Source of the DNA: Clostridiales bacterium | GTDB taxonomy: Bacteria > Bacillota > Clostridia > Christensenellales > Aristaeellaceae | Direction: 5' to 3' | Assembly: GCA_015056205.1 (NCBI GenBank) | Contig: SVGS01000006.1 | Location: forward strand, 1 to 64,000 | DNA length: 64,000 nt | Part shown: positions 1,709 to 40,618 of the stretch, piece by piece | Layout of the letters: each line of letters opens with the position of its first letter | Position numbering within the stretch: position 1 is the first letter of the stretch | The notes under the pieces: model-generated | Told to the model about the DNA's origin: nothing | Databases searched by the model: none | The model's input: the letters and a program-made list of their open reading frames with translations, nothing else | Position numbers and translations under genes: made by a program

Positions 1709-4700
1709 ATGCGTTTAAAGAAACTGGAGCTGTACGGGTTCAAGTCCTTTGCCCAGCGAACGGAAATTGTGTTCAATGAGGGCATAACGGGCATCGTGGG
1801 CCCCAATGGATCCGGAAAAAGCAATATCGGCGATGCGGTGCGCTGGGTGCTGGGGGAACAGAGCGCAAGAACCCTGCGCGGAGCGAACATGCAGGACGTG
1901 ATCTTTAACGGCACGCAGCGCAGAAAGCCGCTGAACTATTGCGAAGTCTCCCTGGTTTTTGATAACGGGGACAGAGCGCTGTCCATGGATTGCGCGGAGG
2001 TTGCGGTGACCCGCCGGGTCTATCGCAGCGGGGAAAGCGAGTATTTTCTGAATCGGTCCGCCTGCCGCCTGAAGGACGTGATAGATCTCTTCCGGGATAC
2101 GGGGGTTGGCAAGGAAGGATACTCCATTATCGGACAGGGCCGTATTGATGATATTCTGTCCCGGAAGGGCGAGGACCGGCGGCTGGTTTTTGAGGAGGCG
2201 GCCGGAATCGTGAAGTTCCGGGCCCGGAAGGAAGAGGCGGATAAAAAGCTGGCGCGGACCCGGGACAATATGAGCCGGGTCACCGATATTATGGATGAGA
2301 TGGAGCATCGGCTGGCTCCCCTGGAGGAGCAGGCGAGAGATGCCCGGATCTATCTGGAAAAATCAGCGAAGCTGAAGGAACTGGATCTGAACCTGTTTCT
2401 TGTCCGGTCGGAAAAAATGGACGCCCGGCTGAGGGAGCTGGACAGCGATCTTCAGGCGATGCGGAGCATTCTGGATCAGGCCGAGTCCGCCCTGCAGGAA
2501 AAAACGGAAAAACGGGACGCGTGTCAGGCGGAAATCACCGCCCTGGACAACAGAATAACGGAAGCTCACGGAAACCTGATGGCGGGGATGGAGGCGGTTC
2601 ATGCCGCGCAGGACGCGGTGAGAACGCTGGAGGAACGGCGCCGCAGCCGCCGGGAAACGCGGGAACGGATTCAGGAGGAGATCCGGACCGCGGCGGAGCG
2701 CATGGAGGAGCTGGAGCAGCTTTTCCGGAAGACGGAAGGCTCCGCCGGGACGGGCAGCGAAGCGCTGAAGGAACAGGAAAAGGCGCTGGAGCAGGCCCGC
2801 CGGGCGGAAGAATCCGCGCGGGCGGAAGAAACGGAAAAGGAAGAAACGCTGGAGAATCGCAAGGCTGCCATGATGGAAATGATCAATCGGCGATCGGCGA
2901 TGCTGAGCGATCAGACCCGGCTGAAAACCATGCTGCAGACCATGGAAAGCCGCAGGGAGGAGATCCAGGAAACCTGCCGGGCGATGGCGGAGGAGGCTTC
3001 CGGACTGGAGGCGGCTTTCGGGGAAGCCGGATCCCGTTTGAAACGCGAGGAAGAGGAACAGAACCGGCTGGAAACGGAGCTCCGGAAGGTACGGGAAGCC
3101 CTGGATGCGGCGGATCAGGCGGTGATTCTGGCACGGGCCAGATATGATGAAAAGCTGAAGGAAATGCGGGATATGGAATCCCGGCAGCGGCTGCTGGACG
3201 AGATGTCCCGGGAGATGGAAGGCTACGCCGGCTCGGTCCGGAATGTGGTGCGCTATGCCCGTGAGCGGCGAATGGAACGGGTCCGCGGTCCGCTGAATCA
3301 GCTGATCTCCGTCCCGCGGAAGTATGAAACCGCCATGGATATGGTCCTGGGCATGACCCAGCAGAACGTGGTCACCGAGGATGAGGAGACTGCGAAAACG
3401 CTGATCGATTATTTAAGGCAGAACCATCTGGGAAGGGCGACATTCCTGCCGATGACCTCCGTGCGGTCCAAGACGCTGAACGCCGGAGAGCGGGAAGCCC
3501 TGAAGCTCCCGGGCTGCCTGGGTGTTGCTTCGGAACTGGTTTCCTTCGATGAGGAGTACCGGGGCATCGTGGAGAATCTGCTGGGTCGTACGGTGGTGGC
3601 TCAGGATCTGGCCAGCGGTATTGCCATTATGCGGCGGGGCGGACACAGTTTCCGCCTGGTGACCCTGCAGGGGGATGTCATGCATTCCGGCGGCTCGATG
3701 ACCGGCGGATCTGTTTCCTCGCGGACGGTGAATCTTTTTTCCCGGGAACGGGAGCTGAAGGAACTGACGGAGAAACTGACAGCCGGTCAGGGAGAGCTGG
3801 AAGCCCTTCTGAAAGCAATGAAGGATGGCCAGCTTCGAAAGGATCAGCTGAAGGCCGATTCGGCGGAGGCCCTGGAGGCGCTGCATCAGCAGGAAATAGC
3901 GGTGGCCCGGGAAACGGAGCGGAAGCAGAATGCCGGGGAAGAACTGAAAATCCACGGGATGAAGCTGCGGGATACCGAAGCGGCCAGAGAACAGCTGATG
4001 GAATCCATTCTGCAGATCCGGGAGCAGCTGTCCATGGTAACCGGGACGACGGAACAGTCCGACGCCGAACGGGAAGCGATGGAAAAGGAAGTTGCCGAAC
4101 TGCAGGAGAGCCTGGCGGCGGCCCGGGAGAAAACAGAGACGCTTGCCGAAGAGACGGTCCGGCTGACGCTTGCGGTGAATGATTTAAGGCATGAGCTGGA
4201 AATCATGGAGCGGGACCGGGACCGTTATGTGCAGGACCGGCGGCGCATGGAGCAGGAGCAGGCCGGCCGGGAGAAGAATCTGACGGAACTGGACAGCGGG
4301 GAAGCGGAGGACGCGGTCCGGGAAGAGGAACTGCGAAAGAACCTGGACGGCGTCCGTAAGGAACAGGCTGCCCGGGAACAGGGAACGGCCTCCCTGGAGG
4401 AGAAACGGTCCGAACGCCAGCGGTTCCTGGCGGATATTCTTCGGGAAATTGAGGAATATCATCAGTCGTATTCCCGGGATACGGACCGGATGCACCGGCT
4501 GGAGCTGAACCGGTCCCGCACGGAGGGCGATTTAAAAACCCTGCGGGAAAGAATCTGGAATACCTATGAGGTAACCTATGCCGGCGCAGAGGAATACCGG
4601 AGAAAGACGCCGATCAATGTGACGGAAGCGGATCGGGAAGCCGCTCAGCTGTCTTCGGAAATCCGGGCCCTGGGGCCTGTGAATGTCCGGGCGGTGGAGG

Positions 4701-5275
4701 AATATGCGGAAACCAGAACCCGCTATGATGAGCTGCTGACGCAGCGGGAGGATCTGGAGAAGGCGGAAGCGGATCTGAAGCAGCTGATTGAGCAGCTGCT
4801 GATCCAGATGCGGGAGACCTTTGTGGAACAGTTTACCCAGCTTCAGGGCTTTTTCTCCGAAACCTTTGTCCGCCTGTTCGGCGGAGGGCATGCGGAGCTG
4901 ATCCTGACGGATCCGGAGGATCCTCTGAACTGTCCGATTGAAATCAACGCGCAGCCGCCCGGAAAGAAACTGCAGCTGCTGAGCCTGCTTTCCGGCGGGG
5001 AGAGAACGCTGACGGCGATCGCGATTCTGTTTGCCACACTGAAACTGAAACCGTCTCCTTTCTGTATTCTGGATGAGATTGAAGCGGCGCTGGACGATGC
5101 CAATATCGGCTACTTTGCGGATTATCTGGTGGAATATTCCCGTTCCACCCAGTTTGTGGTGGTTACCCACCGAAAAGGAACGATGGAGCGGGCGAATGCC
5201 CTGTACGGGGTGGCCATGGAGGAACAGGGAGTCAGTAAAATGGTTTCCGTGTCCCTGAAGGATTATCAGGAATAA
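1709..5275 (+). CDS. smc: Chromosome segregation ATPase SMC
   Basis: An 1188-residue structural maintenance of chromosomes protein, the usual bacterial length; it forms a homodimer that compacts and segregates DNA with ScpA/ScpB. The N-terminal head has Walker A GPNGSGKSN (31-39) and the conserved QGRIDDIL; two long charged coiled-coil arms flank a hinge at roughly 505-660. The C-terminal head has the signature LLSGGERTL (about 1093) and Walker B CILDEIEAALDD. The start ATG follows GGAGG closely. In many Firmicutes smc sits between rnc and ftsY; here it follows an RNA helicase and precedes a secreted protein, and no scpA/scpB is in the window. Confidence 0.97.
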   Translation: MRLKKLELYGFKSFAQRTEIVFNEGITGIVGPNGSGKSNIGDAVRWVLGEQSARTLRGANMQDVIFNGTQRRKPLNYCEVSLVFDNGDRALSMDCAEVAVTRRVYRSGESEYFLNRSACRLKDVIDLFRDTGVGKEGYSIIGQGRIDDILSRKGEDRRLVFEEAAGIVKFRARKEEADKKLARTRDNMSRVTDIMDEMEHRLAPLEEQARDARIYLEKSAKLKELDLNLFLVRSEKMDARLRELDSDLQAMRSILDQAESALQEKTEKRDACQAEITALDNRITEAHGNLMAGMEAVHAAQDAVRTLEERRRSRRETRERIQEEIRTAAERMEELEQLFRKTEGSAGTGSEALKEQEKALEQARRAEESARAEETEKEETLENRKAAMMEMINRRSAMLSDQTRLKTMLQTMESRREEIQETCRAMAEEASGLEAAFGEAGSRLKREEEEQNRLETELRKVREALDAADQAVILARARYDEKLKEMRDMESRQRLLDEMSREMEGYAGSVRNVVRYARERRMERVRGPLNQLISVPRKYETAMDMVLGMTQQNVVTEDEETAKTLIDYLRQNHLGRATFLPMTSVRSKTLNAGEREALKLPGCLGVASELVSFDEEYRGIVENLLGRTVVAQDLASGIAIMRRGGHSFRLVTLQGDVMHSGGSMTGGSVSSRTVNLFSRERELKELTEKLTAGQGELEALLKAMKDGQLRKDQLKADSAEALEALHQQEIAVARETERKQNAGEELKIHGMKLRDTEAAREQLMESILQIREQLSMVTGTTEQSDAEREAMEKEVAELQESLAAAREKTETLAEETVRLTLAVNDLRHELEIMERDRDRYVQDRRRMEQEQAGREKNLTELDSGEAEDAVREEELRKNLDGVRKEQAAREQGTASLEEKRSERQRFLADILREIEEYHQSYSRDTDRMHRLELNRSRTEGDLKTLRERIWNTYEVTYAGAEEYRRKTPINVTEADREAAQLSSEIRALGPVNVRAVEEYAETRTRYDELLTQREDLEKAEADLKQLIEQLLIQMRETFVEQFTQLQGFFSETFVRLFGGGHAELILTDPEDPLNCPIEINAQPPGKKLQLLSLLSGGERTLTAIAILFATLKLKPSPFCILDEIEAALDDANIGYFADYLVEYSRSTQFVVVTHRKGTMERANALYGVAMEEQGVSKMVSVSLKDYQE

Positions 5276-5302
5276 CGGGAACAGAGGGGAAGGAGAGCGG
5301 TC

Positions 5303-6628
5303 ATGATCAGAAAAGCCATGCTGCTTCTGCTGGCACTGATGCTGCTTTCGGCATCCGCGGCGGAAGCGGAGCAGACGGAGGAAAAGGCGGGGATCCTGGA
5401 TCTTTATCTCCTGAAGGAGAATACCAGGGTCTGGCTGGGCACGGCTGTTCCGCTGGCGGAGGAATCCATCCTGACCTCTGCGACCGTCAGTCTGGGAGAA
5501 GGAGAAACGCTGGAACTGTCGGACGGGCGGCATACCTGGGTTCCGGAGAAAGTGCTGCGGGACCAGCGGGGGCTGATTACGCTGCTGCTGCTTCCGGATC
5601 AGACGGAGCCGGAGATAACCGGATTCTGCCGCCTGTATACGATGAACGACGGAGTGAAGGCGGATGACTGCGTGGTTCTTTCGGCAGCCGGAGAGGGCAA
5701 ACGGGAATCCCTTCGGGTGCTGGACGCCGGCGCGGCGGTCTGGCAGGAAACGGATTGTATGCTGGTGCAGCTTTCCGGGGCGGCCTGCCTGGGTTCTCCG
5801 GTCCTGACCGGAAACGGCGAACTGGTCGGGCTGATTGTCGCTCAGTACGCGGAAGGACCGCATCGGTATATGATGATGACGGTGAACGGCCTGGTACAGG
5901 CCCTGACTGATGTCAGTCTCCAGGCTGCCGCGATTACGGATAACGGGGTTCCGGAAGGATTTCAGACCGCCCTGGAGGGAAACCGGGTGACCCTGGACTG
6001 GACCCGCGTGAATCTGCCGAAGGCGGACGGAATGAATGTTTACACGGTGCTGGCCGATCTTGGAAACAGCTACCTGACCTTTTTCCGGGCGGATCAGCAG
6101 GTTTCCCGGGTTCAGATGCTGCTGACGCCGGGCAGAACCTACCTGGCGGGGATGATGCAGTCGGCGGATTCGCCGGAGGTTATTCCGGAGCAGTATGTGA
6201 TTATTTCACTGCCGTCCGCGCAGCCCCTGCGGGAACACGGCTTTCGGTCGGTATGCTGCGGGCTGGCTGAGGATCCGGAAGCCGCGGCCTCGGAAAACCG
6301 GGAACCGGCCCTTCTGACGGAGGTGACCGAGGAGCAGCTTCGCTCCGGAAAAGCCTGTTTCTATTCATCCAGCGTGTACGAGGTATCGGAGAGAGAGGAA
6401 CGTCCCCTGCTGGTTACCCTGACGGATCCGAATGACCATAATTATCAGCATGAAAGTACCTGGGTGTTTGATCCGGCGCTGAAAGAGCGGGATGTCTGGT
6501 GGGCTTCTCCCGCTGAAATGGGCCTGCTCCGTTTCCTGAACGAAGAGGGTTATCCGAAGGGAACCTACCGGATGACTTTCTATGTCGGAAACGCGCTGGC
6601 GGACAGCTTTACCTTTGAAATGAAATAA
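5303..6628 (+). CDS. Secreted trypsin-fold-like protein, probably catalytically dead
   Basis: A 441-residue protein with an N-terminal signal peptide (hydrophobic 5-20, Ala-rich cleavage region before EAEQTEE). Residues 30-200 resemble an S1/HtrA-type trypsin domain: LGTAVPLAEESILTSA corresponds to the strand before the catalytic His and LGSPVLTGNGELVGLI to the strand around the catalytic Ser. The His region reads TSATVS and GNSGSP is replaced by CLGSPVL, so no catalytic triad is evident. Residues 210-441 look like an extracellular beta-rich region with no family I recognise. It starts 27 bases after smc and is followed within 20 bases by the decarboxylase gene. A role as a surface binding or scaffold protein is only a guess. 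Confidence 0.6.
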   Translation: MIRKAMLLLLALMLLSASAAEAEQTEEKAGILDLYLLKENTRVWLGTAVPLAEESILTSATVSLGEGETLELSDGRHTWVPEKVLRDQRGLITLLLLPDQTEPEITGFCRLYTMNDGVKADDCVVLSAAGEGKRESLRVLDAGAAVWQETDCMLVQLSGAACLGSPVLTGNGELVGLIVAQYAEGPHRYMMMTVNGLVQALTDVSLQAAAITDNGVPEGFQTALEGNRVTLDWTRVNLPKADGMNVYTVLADLGNSYLTFFRADQQVSRVQMLLTPGRTYLAGMMQSADSPEVIPEQYVIISLPSAQPLREHGFRSVCCGLAEDPEAAASENREPALLTEVTEEQLRSGKACFYSSSVYEVSEREERPLLVTLTDPNDHNYQHESTWVFDPALKERDVWWASPAEMGLLRFLNEEGYPKGTYRMTFYVGNALADSFTFEMK

Positions 6629-22928: not shown

Positions 22929-23609
22929 ATGAGTTTATCGGAGAAGCTCCACAAAATTTTGATCCAGGGGGATTCCTGGAAGACCATTCTGGGTGGTTTG
23001 TGGGTTACGGTCCAGATTTCGGCGCTTGCGCTGCTGATCGGTACGCTGCTGGGCGCGGTGATCTGCCTTTTGCGTACGCGGAAAAATCCGGTTCTCCGGG
23101 GCTTCGCTTCCGTCTATATTGCGATCCTTCGGGGCACGCCGGTGCTGATGCTGCTGCTTCTGCTGTATTACGGCGTGCTGGCCAGAGCCGGGGTAGCCCC
23201 GGTAATGGTGGCGGTGCTTACTTTCGCACTGAATGTGTCCGCCCATGTGGCGGAACTGCTTCGCTCCGCGTTGGAAGCAACGGACAAAGGGCAGGCGGAG
23301 GCGGCCAGAACCCTGGGCTTTTCCGCCTGGGATACCTTCCGGCTGGTGACGCTTCCGCAGGTGCTGCGGATTGCGAGGCCGGTATATCAGTCCACGATTG
23401 TAAACCTGATTCAGTGGACCAGCGTGGTCGGCTACGTGACCATTACGGATCTGACCCGCGTGATTAACAACACGGCCTCCCGGACGATGCAGCCGCTTCT
23501 GACGATCATCATCGGCATGCTGATTTATCTGGCAATGAGTTATATCGTCTTCGGGATATTTGCTTTGACGGACAAAATCAAACAGAGGAAACGGAGGGAA
23601 GCAGTATGA
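22929..23609 (+). CDS. Polar amino acid ABC transporter permease (HisM/GlnP type)
   Basis: A 226-residue inner-membrane permease with about five helices. WKTILGGLWVTVQISALALL at the N-terminus, the segment TPVLMLLLLLYYG and the EAA loop EAARTLGFSAWDTFRLVTLP identify the His/Glu/Gln/Arg permease family, which imports polar amino acids or opines. ATG 22929 (MSLSEKL) follows AAAGGA at about 10 bases; an in-frame ATG at 22887 is less well supported. The stop overlaps the ATPase start (ATGA). No substrate-binding protein is encoded nearby, so it must come from elsewhere or be absent. Confidence 0.9.
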   Translation: MSLSEKLHKILIQGDSWKTILGGLWVTVQISALALLIGTLLGAVICLLRTRKNPVLRGFASVYIAILRGTPVLMLLLLLYYGVLARAGVAPVMVAVLTFALNVSAHVAELLRSALEATDKGQAEAARTLGFSAWDTFRLVTLPQVLRIARPVYQSTIVNLIQWTSVVGYVTITDLTRVINNTASRTMQPLLTIIIGMLIYLAMSYIVFGIFALTDKIKQRKRREAV

Positions 23610-24700
23610 GTCTGATTGAAGTCAGGGGATTACAAAAGTCCTTCGGCCCGCTGGAAGTCCTGAAGGGGATCGATCTGACGGTGGAAAAAGGCGAGCGTAT
23701 CGCCATCATCGGCGGCAGCGGCTGCGGAAAAAGCGTGTTTCTGCGTTCCCTGTGCCTGCTGGAAAAGCCGGACGCGGGTCAGGTGTTCATCGATGGACAG
23801 GAAATCACAGCCAAAGGCGCGGACGTGGATCAGATCCGCCGCGGGATGGGGATGGTGTTTCAGAAGTTTCATCTGTTTTCCGAGATGAACGTGATGGATA
23901 ATCTGTGTCTGGCGCCGGTTCGCCTGAAAGGGATGAAACGGGAAGAAGCGGAAGCAAAGGCTATGGATCTGCTGGCTCAGGTTGGTCTCGCCTCCCGTGC
24001 CCACGCCTGGCCGACGGTGCTCTCCGGCGGCCAGCAGCAGCGCATTGCCATCTGCCGCTGTCTGATGATGGAGCCCAAGGTGCTCCTGTTCGATGAACCC
24101 ACCAGTGCGCTGGATCCGACCATGGTCGGGGAGGTGCTGGCGGTGATCCGGATGTTGGCGAAACGGGATATGAGCATGTTGATTGTGACTCATGAGATGA
24201 ACTTTGCCCGCGAGGTTGCTAACCGTGTCCTGTTTTTCGCTGATGGCGGGATTTACGAACAGGGAACGCCAGCGGAAATGTTTGATGCTCCGAAGCGGGC
24301 GAAGACCGTTGCCTTTATCAACAAGATCAAATACTTTGCCTATGAAATCAGTCGGAGGCATTTCGATTTGATGCAGGTTCAGGGCGGTATCCAGAGCTTT
24401 GGGGAAAAATACGGCATGGATCAGCCGCATACCTACCGGCTGCAGATCTGCTGTGAGGAATTGATCTATGATCTGATGAACAACTGTTATCCCGGACAGG
24501 AGAATGTTGATATCAAACTGACCATCGCTTACACGGAATCGAATGGATCGAACGAGATTACCCTGGACTGCGGCGGGAAGGAGTACAACCCGTTTGTTCA
24601 GCAGGATGACGGACTGAGCGTAACGATTCTGAAAAAAATGGCAAAACAGCTTGATTACCGGCAGGAGAATGCCCGCAATTACATCCACATCGTTCTTTAA
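23606..24700 (+). CDS. Amino acid ABC ATPase fused to a GHKL/RsbW-like domain
   Basis: A 364-residue protein, about 120 longer than ordinary GlnQ/HisP ATPases. Residues 1-245 are a complete ABC domain: Walker A GGSGCGKS, Q-loop VFQKFHLF, signature LSGGQQQRIAICRCL, Walker B VLLFDEPTSALDP and H-loop THE. Residues about 255-364 do not match ABC regulatory domains but resemble the GHKL ATPase fold of RsbW/SpoIIAB-type anti-sigma kinases: ICCEELIYDLMNNCY (N-box position), LDCGGKEYNPF (D-x-G box), DGLSVTILKKMA (G2 box) and NARNYIHIVL (terminal strand). The canonical N-box Asn appears replaced, so kinase activity is doubtful. The extra domain could regulate transport by binding a partner or nucleotide (inference). 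It is coupled to the permease by ATGA. Confidence 0.85.
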   Translation: MSLIEVRGLQKSFGPLEVLKGIDLTVEKGERIAIIGGSGCGKSVFLRSLCLLEKPDAGQVFIDGQEITAKGADVDQIRRGMGMVFQKFHLFSEMNVMDNLCLAPVRLKGMKREEAEAKAMDLLAQVGLASRAHAWPTVLSGGQQQRIAICRCLMMEPKVLLFDEPTSALDPTMVGEVLAVIRMLAKRDMSMLIVTHEMNFAREVANRVLFFADGGIYEQGTPAEMFDAPKRAKTVAFINKIKYFAYEISRRHFDLMQVQGGIQSFGEKYGMDQPHTYRLQICCEELIYDLMNNCYPGQENVDIKLTIAYTESNGSNEITLDCGGKEYNPFVQQDDGLSVTILKKMAKQLDYRQENARNYIHIVL

Positions 24701-27853: not shown

Positions 27854-29218
27854 TCATCCTTCGGTTTGCTCCCGCGTCAGGTTCTGCACCCACTTGTACT
27901 TTCGGAACCGGATCATCACCCAGGGAATTTTGCCGACCTCGTCCAGACACGTACAGGCGTACACCAGCAGCGGATGCCAGCGGAACACAAATGCGCCCAG
28001 CAGAGCCAGGGGAATCGCGATACCCCACATGCAGACGGCCAGGCTGTACATATCGAACACCGTGTCTCCGCCGCCGTCCAGCACGCCGTTGATCGTCACG
28101 GTGTTTACGCACCGGCCGATCATGTAGACGGCCATGATGACCATCATTCCGGTCAGATACTCCCGCGCCTGATCCGTCAGGATTACCATCCGCACAACTC
28201 CCGGCGTGATTGCCAGCACCAGCGCCATGGAGCAAAGGCCGATCACGTAGGAAATGTTTTTCAGTTTGATTCCGTATGCTTTTCCGCGCTCCAGGTTCCC
28301 GGCGCCGAGTTCGTTGCCTACGATGATCCCGGCGGCGCCTCCGATACCGTTGCACACGCAGCAGATCAGATCCCGTACCACGGCGGCTACGGAGCTGGCC
28401 GCCGCAGCGTCCACTCCCATGTGGCCCATGATCGCCGTGTAGGAAGTAAAGCCGATGCCCCAGAACAGGGATCCCCCCAGCAGCGGCAGGCACTGCCTGC
28501 CGAAGTCCCGCGTCAGCTGCCGGCTTCCGCGGAAGATCTTCCGCCACTCCGGCCGAACATAATCTTTTCCGGCGGAGATCCCCACGCAAAGGGCAAGCTC
28601 CGTGATCCGGGAGACCGTTGTGGCCAGCGCCGCTCCCCGGGCCTGCATCCGGGGAGCTCCCAGCAGTCCGAAGATGAATACAGCGTTCAGCAGGATATTG
28701 ATCACAACCGCGGCGGAGCTGATCCATGCGCAGGGCTTCACGTGATCTGTCACCTTCATCACGGCCATATAGCTCTGGGACAGTCCGGTCAGCAGGTACG
28801 ACCATCCGGCGATCCGCAGATACGCGCTGCCCAGGGCAATCAGCTCCCCGTCATGGGTGAAAATCCGCATCAGCAGTTCCGGAATCAGTTCGCAGGCCAG
28901 GCAGAAGGCCAGGGAGAGCGTCATGCTGAAGCGGATCATGAGGTGGAACAAATCCTGAAGCGTCTTCCGGTCTCCTTTTCCCCAGTACTGCGCGCCGAGG
29001 ATGGAGCCCGCTGCCGTGATGGCCATCACGAACATATTCTGCACAAACTGCACCTGTGTCGCCAGGGAAACCGCGGTCATCTCTTCCTGCGCCACCCGGC
29101 CCAGCATCAGCGCGTCTCCCGTCGCCACCATTGCGAGCATGAGGCTTTGAAAGGCGATGGGCAGCGAAAGCTGCCGCAGCTTTCTGTAGAATTCTCTGTT
29201 CTCCGCTCTGATCCGCAT
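27854..29218 (-). CDS. MATE family efflux transporter
   Basis: A 454-residue membrane protein with about 12 helices of the MatE fold (NorM/DinF type), which expels drugs or metabolites in exchange for sodium or protons. Seen: PIAFQSLMLAMVATGDALML in helix 1, GAQYWGKGD between helices 2 and 3, and the repeat in the second half with GNELGAGNLERGKAYG. ATG at 29218 (MRIRAENREF) is preferred because GAGGAGAG lies about 9 bases before it; the frame continues upstream to 29245 across that ribosome site. It is convergent with recQ and divergent from the next gene. Unlike the MATE protein at 38803-40512 it has no extra C-terminal domain. Confidence 0.9.
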   Translation of the reverse strand: MRIRAENREFYRKLRQLSLPIAFQSLMLAMVATGDALMLGRVAQEEMTAVSLATQVQFVQNMFVMAITAAGSILGAQYWGKGDRKTLQDLFHLMIRFSMTLSLAFCLACELIPELLMRIFTHDGELIALGSAYLRIAGWSYLLTGLSQSYMAVMKVTDHVKPCAWISSAAVVINILLNAVFIFGLLGAPRMQARGAALATTVSRITELALCVGISAGKDYVRPEWRKIFRGSRQLTRDFGRQCLPLLGGSLFWGIGFTSYTAIMGHMGVDAAAASSVAAVVRDLICCVCNGIGGAAGIIVGNELGAGNLERGKAYGIKLKNISYVIGLCSMALVLAITPGVVRMVILTDQAREYLTGMMVIMAVYMIGRCVNTVTINGVLDGGGDTVFDMYSLAVCMWGIAIPLALLGAFVFRWHPLLVYACTCLDEVGKIPWVMIRFRKYKWVQNLTREQTEG

Positions 29219-37649: not shown

Positions 37650-38666
37650 TTATTTCAGATAAGCAACACAAGCCTCATACGCCTGTTTCATGTAAGGATG
37701 CTCTTTCATAGCGCTGCACAGCAATTTTAGATTCTTATAATCCCTGCTGTCAGCGTTCTTCATATAGAGCTTAAGCATGCCATCTGAATAGGTGCCGCTC
37801 GGGTTGGCAAGGTAAGCCTGGTTGTTGTCAAAATTCGGTGCCATGCGGAGTACTTCTCCTGTTTCAGAGGAACGAATGAAACCATAGTTACGCATATGTC
37901 GATCAGTGTTAAGGAAAGCGGCATCTGCAATAAGGATTCGTTTCCACGCTTTTTCGAATTCCGGTCCGAGGGAAGCGATGTTCTGATAAATCACGTCTTC
38001 ATCATCGCTGGGATCATCAAAGAAAAAACGGAAGGAATCATATGGTTCAAAGAACTCTTTCGGCTGAAGGAAATTGCGGGATTTAACCCGTTTACGGAAG
38101 CTTCCCATATATGCGTATTCTGCGGTATCCCATCCAATTTCCCGCAATATACGACTGATCTCTACTTCCGCTTTGGAAGCTGCAGTTGGCTGGAGCTTAT
38201 AGAGCCACCATGCGCCTTTTTCATACTTCCATGTCTTTGTAAAGCTTCCGTCTGTGGATGCATTTGGAGTTGCCACCTGCAGATTTCGTAAACTCGTATC
38301 ACTTGAAACAAGAATAAAGTTACTGACCGTATTCTGGTTTTCAGGCTTGCATAGCTGCAGTCTCGGAGTGAAATCGCCTGCTTCAAAACAAGTGAATGTA
38401 TCGGAAATGCTGAACATGTGCGTGCGAAGCGCCAGGATCGTTTTATCACGGCTTCCCAGCAGTTCATTCATCAGGTTCCTGTGCTGGACGTTGTTCAGAT
38501 CCACCGCCCGTTCCCTCAGCCAGGATGAAAAGCCTTCAGCGGTTGAGCGGCGGATCTGCATTGGGAGTAGTTCTGGTTTTTCCGGGAAATACTCAGATAT
38601 GACAGATTTTGACACAGAGAACTGCGCAACCCGGACATCATCGTTGTAAAGAATATACTGAGCCAA
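37650..38666 (-). CDS. HipA-like serine/threonine kinase domain protein
   Basis: A 338-residue protein whose C-terminal half has the HipA kinase pattern: ADAAFLNTDRHMRNYGF (catalytic Asp and Asn) and APNFDNNQAYL (DFG-like Asp). HipA toxins phosphorylate glutamyl-tRNA synthetase and are normally paired with a DNA-binding HipB; no HipB-like gene adjoins this one, and the N-terminal half (about 1-150) does not resemble classical HipA_N. TTG 38666 is chosen because GGGAGGTGA ends 5-6 bases before it; a GTG three codons upstream overlaps that ribosome site. The gene is clearly AT-richer than its neighbours and is bordered by REP-like repeats, suggesting transfer. A toxin role is unproven. Confidence 0.78.
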   Translation of the reverse strand: MAQYILYNDDVRVAQFSVSKSVISEYFPEKPELLPMQIRRSTAEGFSSWLRERAVDLNNVQHRNLMNELLGSRDKTILALRTHMFSISDTFTCFEAGDFTPRLQLCKPENQNTVSNFILVSSDTSLRNLQVATPNASTDGSFTKTWKYEKGAWWLYKLQPTAASKAEVEISRILREIGWDTAEYAYMGSFRKRVKSRNFLQPKEFFEPYDSFRFFFDDPSDDEDVIYQNIASLGPEFEKAWKRILIADAAFLNTDRHMRNYGFIRSSETGEVLRMAPNFDNNQAYLANPSGTYSDGMLKLYMKNADSRDYKNLKLLCSAMKEHPYMKQAYEACVAYLK

Positions 38667-38695
38667 AATCGTCACCTCCCATTAAGATTGTGCTC

Positions 38696-38802: not shown

Positions 38803-40512
38803 TTATGCCTGCCGGCTGATCTCGAAGGAATTCCGGTTAAAGCTCACAGCCATCAGGTGGTGCTCTTCATGGCACCATGCCGCCAGAAGCCCCGGCACGA
38901 TATAACCGCGGAAGGAAGTGATGCTTTTGTCCGGATCGGTCAGATCCAGCTGCGCCCCGTTATCCCGGATGATCAGCGTAATCTTTTCCGGGGAAACCGT
39001 CAGGGCGCACTCGGCGGACACCTTCTTATGGCCGTTTCTTTCATAGACCAGCATGAGCAGATCCTCCAGCATCAGCATCATACGGATCACCTGTCTTGCG
39101 GCGACGCCCGTTTCCCGAAGCGCCCGCTCCGCTGAATCCCTCAACCGGGTCACCCGCTCCGGATTCACCTCCGTCTCAAACAGATAGTTTTTCAGACCCT
39201 CTTCCCGTGAATGCAGCAGCAGAGGCAGGTTCTTCCATCCGTATTTTTTCCTCACAAACAGCATGGAAAGGAAAAAAGCGAGCACGGTGCCGGCCGACGC
39301 GCCGATGAAGACTCCTTCAATCCCGAAGATCATCCCTCCGGCGATCACGGCGGGAACGACGCAGAGGCTGTCCCGCATGGCGCTGATACCAACGCTCAGA
39401 CCCACCTTGTCGATCAGCCGGTAGTAAGACGTCAGCATGTAAAGATAACAGGTAAAGATCAGGGAGGGCGTCATGAAAAGGATACCCCTCGAAGCCACGC
39501 CGCCCAGTTCCGGATCCGTAATCCCCGTGAGATCGGGAATCTCTCCGGACAGGAGAATCATCAGGAGCATGGCCGCGATGCTTTCCACGACGCATGTAAC
39601 GGAAGCCATGCGCCACAGCTTCCGGATCCCCTTAAAGCAGTTTTCCGACAGATACACGCTCATGATCGGCGTGAAGGCCGCGCCAATCCCGTCGAAAAGC
39701 AGCAGGAATTCCTGAACAAGCAGGACGACGGAGACCATGATGATCCTTTCTTCCCCGAAACGCCAGAGCACGAACAGATTCAGAGCGTAGGAAAAAGACG
39801 ACAGAAACAGATAGTTCCCGGCATCGGTCAGGGCATAATGGATGTCATCGCGCAGAACAGGAAAGGAAAAGTCCAGGTTCAGCCTGAGCGTATTGGTCTT
39901 TCTGAAAAGATGCGTCATTGCCACCAGAAACCGGAGCGCTACGGCGATCACGGAGGCGAGCCCGACCCCGGCGATTCCCATGGTGCGGCAGAAGAGGATG
40001 GACAGGATAATGTTGGAGGCTGCCTCCACAATGGATACCGCGATGATGCAGGCCTCGTCCCCGTCCGCGAAAACCGCCTGAAACATCACTTCCGCAACGG
40101 GCATGAGCAGAAGCTCAAAACGAATCCAGTTGTAATATTCGCCAGCCAGGCGCGACATGGCCGCGGAAAGCTGAAAATGCCTCAGATAGCTGCTCTTGAT
40201 CCCTGTCAGGAGAACAAAAATCAGGATTCCGCCGACAATGCACACCGTCAGCCCCGTTCCGAAGACCCGGTCCGCTTCATCTTTGTCGAACCGGCCTCTG
40301 GCCTTGGCGTACAGGATCGGAATCCCCAGAGAGATAAACATGGCGAAGAAAACACAGAGGTTATAGAGCGGAGCGACCACATTGACGGCGGAAACAGCGG
40401 TATCGCCCAGAAAGACCCCGCAGACGATGGTATCTGTCATGATCACCAGGGCGTTGACGATGCTGGTGAAGGTGGCGCCGCCCAGCATGGACAGAAATTT
40501 TTTCTTAATCAT
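38803..40512 (-). CDS. MATE-type transporter fused to a GHKL/RsbW-like C-terminal domain
   Basis: A 569-residue protein, about 120 residues longer than usual MATE carriers. Residues 1-440 form a 12-helix MATE bundle (MLGGATFTSIVNALVIMTDT, GIPILYAKARGRFDKDEAD, EVMFQAVFADGDEACI). Residues about 445-569 are soluble and resemble the GHKL domain of RsbW-type regulators: RVTRLRDSAERALRETGV, VIRMMLMLEDLLMLVYERNG (N-box position with Glu kept but Asn lost), LIIRDNGAQLDLTDPDKS (D-x-G box) and a terminal strand SFNRNSFEI. ATG at 40512 follows AGAGGAAG; longer starts fall at or before the predicted transcription start. The domain may gate transport or bind a partner (inference). Confidence 0.83.
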   Translation of the reverse strand: MIKKKFLSMLGGATFTSIVNALVIMTDTIVCGVFLGDTAVSAVNVVAPLYNLCVFFAMFISLGIPILYAKARGRFDKDEADRVFGTGLTVCIVGGILIFVLLTGIKSSYLRHFQLSAAMSRLAGEYYNWIRFELLLMPVAEVMFQAVFADGDEACIIAVSIVEAASNIILSILFCRTMGIAGVGLASVIAVALRFLVAMTHLFRKTNTLRLNLDFSFPVLRDDIHYALTDAGNYLFLSSFSYALNLFVLWRFGEERIIMVSVVLLVQEFLLLFDGIGAAFTPIMSVYLSENCFKGIRKLWRMASVTCVVESIAAMLLMILLSGEIPDLTGITDPELGGVASRGILFMTPSLIFTCYLYMLTSYYRLIDKVGLSVGISAMRDSLCVVPAVIAGGMIFGIEGVFIGASAGTVLAFFLSMLFVRKKYGWKNLPLLLHSREEGLKNYLFETEVNPERVTRLRDSAERALRETGVAARQVIRMMLMLEDLLMLVYERNGHKKVSAECALTVSPEKITLIIRDNGAQLDLTDPDKSITSFRGYIVPGLLAAWCHEEHHLMAVSFNRNSFEISRQA

Positions 40513-40618
40513 AGCCGGAGCTTCCTCTTTGTCGGAACACAATCGCTCTCCATGAGAAATCGGCTTGTCCATTATCTGATACAGCCGGGATGCCGGTCCG
40601 ATCCGGCATATCCGCATC

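Follow-up and report, generated by a model that had tools for sequence, protein, structure and literature searches.

An RsbW-like tail on a MATE transporter of a Clostridiales bacterium: possible output of a partner switch

The first 64,000 nucleotides of contig SVGS01000006.1 of a Clostridiales bacterium (assembly GCA_015056205.1), here called the window, contain a gene for a MATE-type transporter, P0002, that carries a soluble C-terminal domain. On the evidence of sequence and structure model, this tail has the SpoIIAB/RsbW fold, in agreement with an original prediction, made from the DNA alone, of a GHKL/RsbW-like domain at this place. Its ATP site is degenerate, and genes of the partner-switching type are found beside several of its relatives. 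We consider it moderately probable that P0002 is a MATE-type exporter in which a pseudo-RsbW tail acts as the inferred docking site for a STAS protein, in a partner switch with the transporter as output.

The membrane part of P0002 is readily assigned to the MATE family, as Pfam finds MatE (PF01554) in two stretches with 71.2 bits against a curated cut-off of 24.9 (E 1e-19). The tail gives a weak match to HATPase_c_2 (PF13581), its 17.2 bits falling short of the cut-off of 27.4, and it is by shared fold and profile-level homology (HHalign) that it can be placed among the RsbW-like GHKL domains. Modelled separately, it reaches a predicted local distance difference test score (pLDDT) of 90.4, and its PDB matches are SpoIIAB, RsbW and UsfX, with a possible bias to the RsbW fold from the alignment used (A5), in which 8 of 45 rows are stand-alone RsbW proteins. 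The full-length model, built from an alignment (A4) without such rows, has the same topology (pLDDT 88; predicted template modelling score, pTM, 0.83), with long helices over residues 2-424 and the tail after the last membrane helix. A sequence search of PDB chains with the last 110 tail residues yielded no usable match (best E 0.34). The other MATE protein of the window (27854-29218) was predicted to lack a tail, and Pfam indeed sees MatE alone.

In GHKL proteins, ATP and Mg are bound by the N-box Asn, the G1 motif Asp-x-Gly and the lid glycines. In P0002 the N-box Asn is replaced and the G2 lid glycines are gone, with T, S and R at the three aligned positions; the tail is therefore probably inactive as a kinase. 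The G1 motif is kept, Asp and Gly each being present in 76 of the 78 tails of the set typified by P0002 and C42, a second tailed MATE protein of the same genome. The N-box Asn occurs in 1 of these 78 tails, that of L164, which is of a different type and 19% identical to P0002. It is absent from all 7 ABC, 2 AMP-ligase and 3 SDF domains aligned, and the AMP-ligase tails (L020, L157) have Glu at its position. It is present in 16 of 17 RsbW-type rows, which include L039, a piece of the own-genome fusion C17; the sole row without it is a fragment of a MATE fusion. A further group of MATE tails keeps it in 11 of 13 cases; these tails were picked by their match to the RsbW profile, so that their likeness to RsbW, not that to the P0002 tails, is partly by construction. 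Within the P0002/C42 subfamily, E483, E484, N493, K496, D517, G519, N559 and R560 are nearly invariant (A4, 39 rows), P0002 itself deviating at position 484 with Asp. In a smaller alignment (A2, 7 rows), N562 and N564 (C42 numbering) are invariant.

The original prediction had seen similar tails on two transporter folds, the second being that of the ABC ATPase P0001. Both tails prove to be RsbW-like: P0001 has a similarly weak HATPase_c_2 match over its last 110 residues, and the ABC tails align with RsbW (HHalign 96.9%, E 1.9e-10). The direct profile-profile alignment of both tails that had been proposed, however, gives only 10.3% (HHalign). The tails of P0002 and P0001 are, on sequence grounds, separate lineages of one superfamily, and a single, recently shared domain was dropped from consideration. 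In a FastTree tree from a short alignment, the ABC (7 rows, 0.999), P0002-type (17 rows, 0.992), SDF (3 rows, 0.984) and AMP (2 rows, 1.0) domains form clades of their own; the seven ABC tails aligned leave out L211, L212 and L220. Of 41 genomes, 10 have ABC-tail-like matches, the own genome among them.

The proposed census of tailed transporters widened the architecture beyond two proteins, to MATE, ABC, SDF and AMP-ligase carriers. SDF-type symporters with an N-terminal RsbW-like domain are encoded near MATE-tail genes at L157 (11903-13495, +), L179 (5355-6932, +) and L189 (5834-6958, +); this domain aligns with RsbW (93.0%) and the P0002 tails (93.9%), with controls at 0.2% or less (HHalign). 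Acyl-CoA-synthetase-like AMP-forming ligases with an RsbW-like C-terminal tail are found at L020 (12718-14700, +; own genome, C17) and L157 (574-2565, +). At L155 a MATE-tail gene is preceded, 77 bases upstream and in the same orientation, by an ABC-tail gene, whose tail is called by the ABC-tail profile (E 1e-10) and has no HATPase_c_2 match in Pfam; L132 and L136 have ABC-tail genes within 4 kb of a MATE-tail gene.

The own genome alone has six tailed MATE proteins: P0002, C42, C9, C17, C31 and C39. In Pfam, C17 and C31 exceed the HATPase_c_2 cut-off and C9 lies just under it; the tails of C42 and C39 have no match and were identified by alignment. Among ten fusions scanned, the MATE fusions L094, L107, L110, L020 and L024 pass the cut-off, L019 (26.6 bits) and L091 (19.0) miss it, and L018 and L021 have no match. 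Searched with an alignment of 12 fusions, among them the own proteins, all 31 genomes of the genus that were covered give matches at E 1e-60 or better; 30 of them have a match through the tail, interrupted by a single internal stop in G007, and in G014 there are two partial matches. In the phylum sample, at least 6 of 249 genomes, own included, have a match through the tail among the matches listed, a lower bound with at most five candidates scored per genome. A scan of named genomes yielded C42-type MATE proteins at 79 loci, with 56-90% identity and a few of them partial. Some redundancy exists among the loci of the analysis: L131 is G012, L138 is G003, L178 is G153, and L135 and L189 overlap. 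Judged by titles, the hosts of the 79 loci are mostly metagenome-assembled genomes of rumen and gut Clostridia; they also include the cultured [Clostridium] aminophilum. In the mainly open-access literature, among the matches listed, no MATE, SDF or ABC protein with an RsbW-like domain is described.

Neighbouring genes point to a partner. A search of the class (291 genomes) gave 43 MATE matches; two own proteins and G111, at a contig start, were dropped, leaving 20 long proteins (a frame of at least 525 residues, or cut by the contig end, as in G226) and 20 short ones. Beyond the MATE domain, the short proteins have 17-46 residues and the long ones 121-173, except the contig-cut L092. A tail was recognised in 13 of the 20 long proteins: 10 by the RsbW profile, L091 and L093 as C42/P0002-like, and L092 as cut C42-type. 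About 7 kb on each side, where the contig allowed, was searched in frames of at least 50 residues with profiles from own-genome seeds; as STAS, stand-alone proteins of at most 150 residues were counted, leaving out a 402-residue STAS protein of L108. Around the 13 recognised-tail genes, compared with the 20 short ones, PP2C genes were found at 7 against 0 loci (p 0.0004), AMP-binding genes at 6 against 1 (p 0.008) and any of the genes sought at 12 against 1 (p 5e-7). For all 20 long loci, the corresponding counts are 7 against 0 (p 0.0083), 11 against 1 (p 0.0012) and 17 against 1 (p 4e-7). All PP2C, STAS and RsbW neighbours of the long set lie within the 13 recognised-tail loci. Grouped by genus, by hand, PP2C occurs in 6 of 9 long and 0 of 17 short genera (p 0.0004). 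The 79 C42-type loci, with many contigs ending near the gene, have PP2C at 19, STAS at 16, RsbW at 12, AMP-binding genes at 5 and any of these at 23.

These genes can be organised in modules. P0002 is most similar to G023 (39% identity), L093 (38%), L189 (37%) and L163 (36%), and is 28% identical to C42 of its own genome; partner genes stand beside L163, L189 and C42. At L163 the order is MATE-tail, STAS, PP2C, RsbW and MATE-tail, then HAD and FGGY, and at L189 it is MATE, MATE-tail, PP2C, STAS, STAS, RsbW, SDF-tail and MATE-tail. The C42 operon reads PP2C, RsbW, STAS, MATE-tail, HAD and FGGY, an order kept in G012. HAD phosphatase and FGGY kinase genes recur beside C42-type MATE-tail genes (by Pfam on L018, L157 and L163; by eye on L184). 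Untailed and tailed MATE genes stand in tandem on one strand at L192, L193, L194, L196, L051, L052 and L189; such pairs could possibly form heterodimers. Elsewhere, a GH3-family enzyme gene lies between a STAS and a MATE-tail gene (L182, 5212-6927, +), and STAS genes at L022 (7880-8809) and L060 (4280-5167; own genome, C14) are paired with proteins of 179-190 residues that look by eye like degenerate RsbW.

Adenylating enzymes are also encoded nearby. Large nonribosomal peptide synthetase (NRPS)-like proteins adjoin recognised MATE-tail genes at L104-L107 and L110, the last with the Pfam order A-T-C-A-T-reductase (A, adenylation; T, carrier; C, condensation), and A-T-C proteins lie beside MATE-tail genes at L093, L161 and L182. 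These neighbours suggest that the cargo of several relatives consists of products of adenylating, NRPS-like enzymes. An NRPS-like cargo is conceivable for P0002 itself; among its closest relatives, only L093 has such a neighbour, and no switch genes are found there. Directly after the A-T-C protein of L161 lies the gene for a 985-residue MATE-tail protein (3010-5967, +), with about 410 extra N-terminal residues that have no Pfam match.

Table 1. Positions of P0002, its parts and other features; HAD and FGGY positions are those of the locus named.
Feature	Position	Strand	Basis
MATE transporter gene with RsbW/SpoIIAB-like C-terminal domain (P0002, 569 aa)	38803..40512	-	open frame, Pfam, model
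P0002 MATE membrane part, residues 1-435	39208..40512	-	Pfam MatE; model helices
P0002 GHKL/RsbW-like tail, residues 436-569	38806..39207	-	HHalign, tail model, PDB matches
Degenerate N box, residues 483-493 (EDLLMLVYERN), Leu488 replacing the N-box Asn	39034..39066	-	group alignment
Kept G1-type motif Asp517-x-Gly519 (D517-N-G519)	38956..38964	-	group alignment
C-terminal Asn-Arg-Asn, residues 559-561, mark of the P0002/C42 subfamily	38830..38838	-	alignments A4, A2
Likely ribosome-binding site of P0002, AAGAGGAAG, before ATG at 40512	40521..40529	-	direct reading
ABC ATPase P0001, 364 aa, tail about residues 241-364	23606..24700	+	Pfam; tail profile; HHalign
ABC permease gene, overlapping the start of P0001	22887..23609	+	Pfam BPD_transp_1, E 1.4e-16
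HAD and FGGY genes, L018	8180-10408		
HAD and FGGY genes, L157	8737-11013		
HAD and FGGY genes, L163	8734-10937		
HAD and FGGY genes, L184	8718-12716		

In the window, P0002 is flanked, all on the minus strand, by a HipA_C-like gene downstream and by two ABC-2 membrane genes and an ABC ATPase gene upstream. The HipA_C-like protein (37650-38675, -) reaches 28.9 bits against a Pfam cut-off of 30.5.

In the proposed switch, a stand-alone RsbW kinase would phosphorylate the STAS protein, and a SpoIIE-type PP2C phosphatase would strip off the phosphate upon sensing its signal. Unphosphorylated STAS protein would then dock on the pseudo-RsbW tail and transport would be switched, the tail itself presumably being unable to phosphorylate and release its partner. 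The transporter would thereby occupy the position that the sigma factor holds in the SigB and SigF switches. The original prediction had suggested that both kinds of transporter are controlled by a common partner or a PP2C phosphatase. A shared partner is still the best reading, because recognised-tail MATE genes, unlike untailed ones, lie near PP2C, STAS and RsbW genes, and because ABC-tail and MATE-tail genes are paired at L155. The PP2C more likely acts on the STAS protein than on the tail, given that the modules contain STAS genes whose products have the usual serine stretch.

Several observations weigh against the proposed switch. Contig C20, on which P0002 lies, has none of the six own-genome PP2C (SpoIIE) matches and none of the six STAS matches, so that any partner would need to be supplied in trans, for example from the own-genome C42 operon. 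Other PF13581 matches on C20, at 47444 and 60154, are both weak. In the 15 kb read around G023, the closest relative, there are no switch genes, and 58 of the 79 C42-type loci have none in the available DNA, many contigs being short. STAS and stand-alone RsbW genes, each 3 against 0 in the comparison of 20 with 20 loci, are not significantly enriched (p 0.23 each), and of the 17 positive loci in the full 20, 10 are positive through an adenylating gene alone. The PP2C gene of L092 lies more than 3 kb off on the other strand, the tail there being contig-cut, and that of L096 about 5 kb off. The counts are not independent, since a single genus (g37), with six genomes, contributes 9 of the 20 long loci. 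In 7 of the 20 long proteins (L095, L098-L102 and L109), the C-terminal part is unmatched to the RsbW group (HHalign 34% or less), and about 7 kb on each side of their genes holds no switch gene. This part, of 121-148 residues and mostly encoded beside adenylating genes, is possibly a further diverged or an unrelated tail. Finally, the N-box Asn kept in the further MATE group means that not all MATE tails are pseudo-kinases.

This last point also favours the chief rival, which we regard as unlikely: the transporter could be the sensor, its transport state altering the tail, which would capture or release the STAS protein, or phosphorylate it where the N box is intact, and so inform the RsbW/PP2C switch. 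Sensor transporters fused to histidine kinases are indeed known in the SSS family (CbrA). A sensing tail fits less well with P0002 and 76 of the 77 other tails of its set, which lack the N-box Asn. Moreover, the PP2C of L110 has a HAMP domain and that of L018, by eye, a hydrophobic N-terminal half, and sensing can therefore lie in the phosphatase. It is rather improbable that the tail serves for dimerisation or anchoring; like other GHKL domains, it would then pair with a second tail or with a stand-alone RsbW and keep the switch at the membrane, with no gating of transport. RsbW and SpoIIAB are dimers, and stand-alone RsbW genes do occur at 3 of 20 long and 12 of 79 C42-type loci, but anchoring alone leaves unexplained why the ATP site was lost while the fold was kept, and why similar domains are found on AMP-ligases and SDF symporters.

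We give very little credence to a membrane-bound anti-sigma factor, whose sigma factor would be freed by transport or STAS binding. The genes called in the L018, L163 and L189 modules included no sigma factor (gene calls, profiles and Pfam, no dedicated sigma search being made), and STAS genes recur there. A relic devoid of present function would agree with the high divergence of the P0002 tail and its score under the Pfam cut-off; this explanation is just as improbable, given the nearly invariant subfamily residues across 39 proteins, the identities within the C42 type and the matches through the tail in 30 of the 31 genomes of the genus.

RsbW and SpoIIAB are serine kinases of the RsbV-RsbW-RsbU and SpoIIAA-SpoIIAB-SpoIIE partner switches. 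The P0002 domain differs from them in its fusion to a transporter and in its lost ATP-site residues, and no sigma factor turned up in the modules read. An output other than a sigma factor has a parallel in a switch in which an RsbW-like stand-alone kinase governs an enzyme, a diguanylate cyclase. In SSS-family transporters of the CbrA type, a histidine kinase is fused to the transporter and paired with a response regulator; these are reminiscent of P0002 in combining a transporter and a GHKL-type ATPase domain in one chain, whereas the domain of P0002 is RsbW-like and degenerate. To our knowledge, the ABC ATPase MlaF has neither a GHKL tail nor a PP2C/RsbW cycle. In MlaFB it is bound by the STAS protein MlaB, which acts on the transporter post-translationally (PMC7367683), a precedent for STAS action on a transporter; MATE proteins such as P0002 are secondary transporters. 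SLC26/SulP transporters have a C-terminal STAS domain (PMC8256260) and are thus fused to one half of a STAS/anti-sigma pair, while P0002 carries the other, kinase-like half. The NRPS-like fatty acid amide (oaa) pathway of gut Clostridia has A, carrier and condensation domains on three free-standing proteins (PMC13142362), the same domains that are fused in the A-T-C proteins beside MATE-tail genes. The main text on that pathway does not contain the term "transporter" (PMC13142362).

A worn-down switch domain on an exporter, together with relatives and other transporters with similar domains that can be encoded beside switch genes, raises the possibility of direct control of transport by such a switch in gut and rumen bacteria. 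A broader proposal, which we put forward tentatively and hold at somewhat below an even chance, is that gut and rumen Clostridia have rewired partner switching to membrane traffic. Degenerate RsbW domains would be sockets on three or more transporter folds (MATE exporters, ABC ATPases and SDF symporters) and on AMP-forming ligases, and a single STAS protein under the control of RsbW and a sensing PP2C would jointly gate the synthesis, uptake and export of a product without new transcription. Partner switching itself is known; its output here, a direct gating of transporters and ligases, would stand a fair chance of being new. If true, bacterial secondary transporters would be under direct post-translational control by serine phosphorylation, with parts known mainly for sigma factors. 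The C42-type operons would provide a test system, C42-type genes being present in a cultured species as well, and the tails would offer a handle on exporters beside NRPS-like genes of gut Clostridia. It would also suggest a use for the STAS, RsbW-like and SpoIIE-type proteins that are encoded without a nearby sigma factor.
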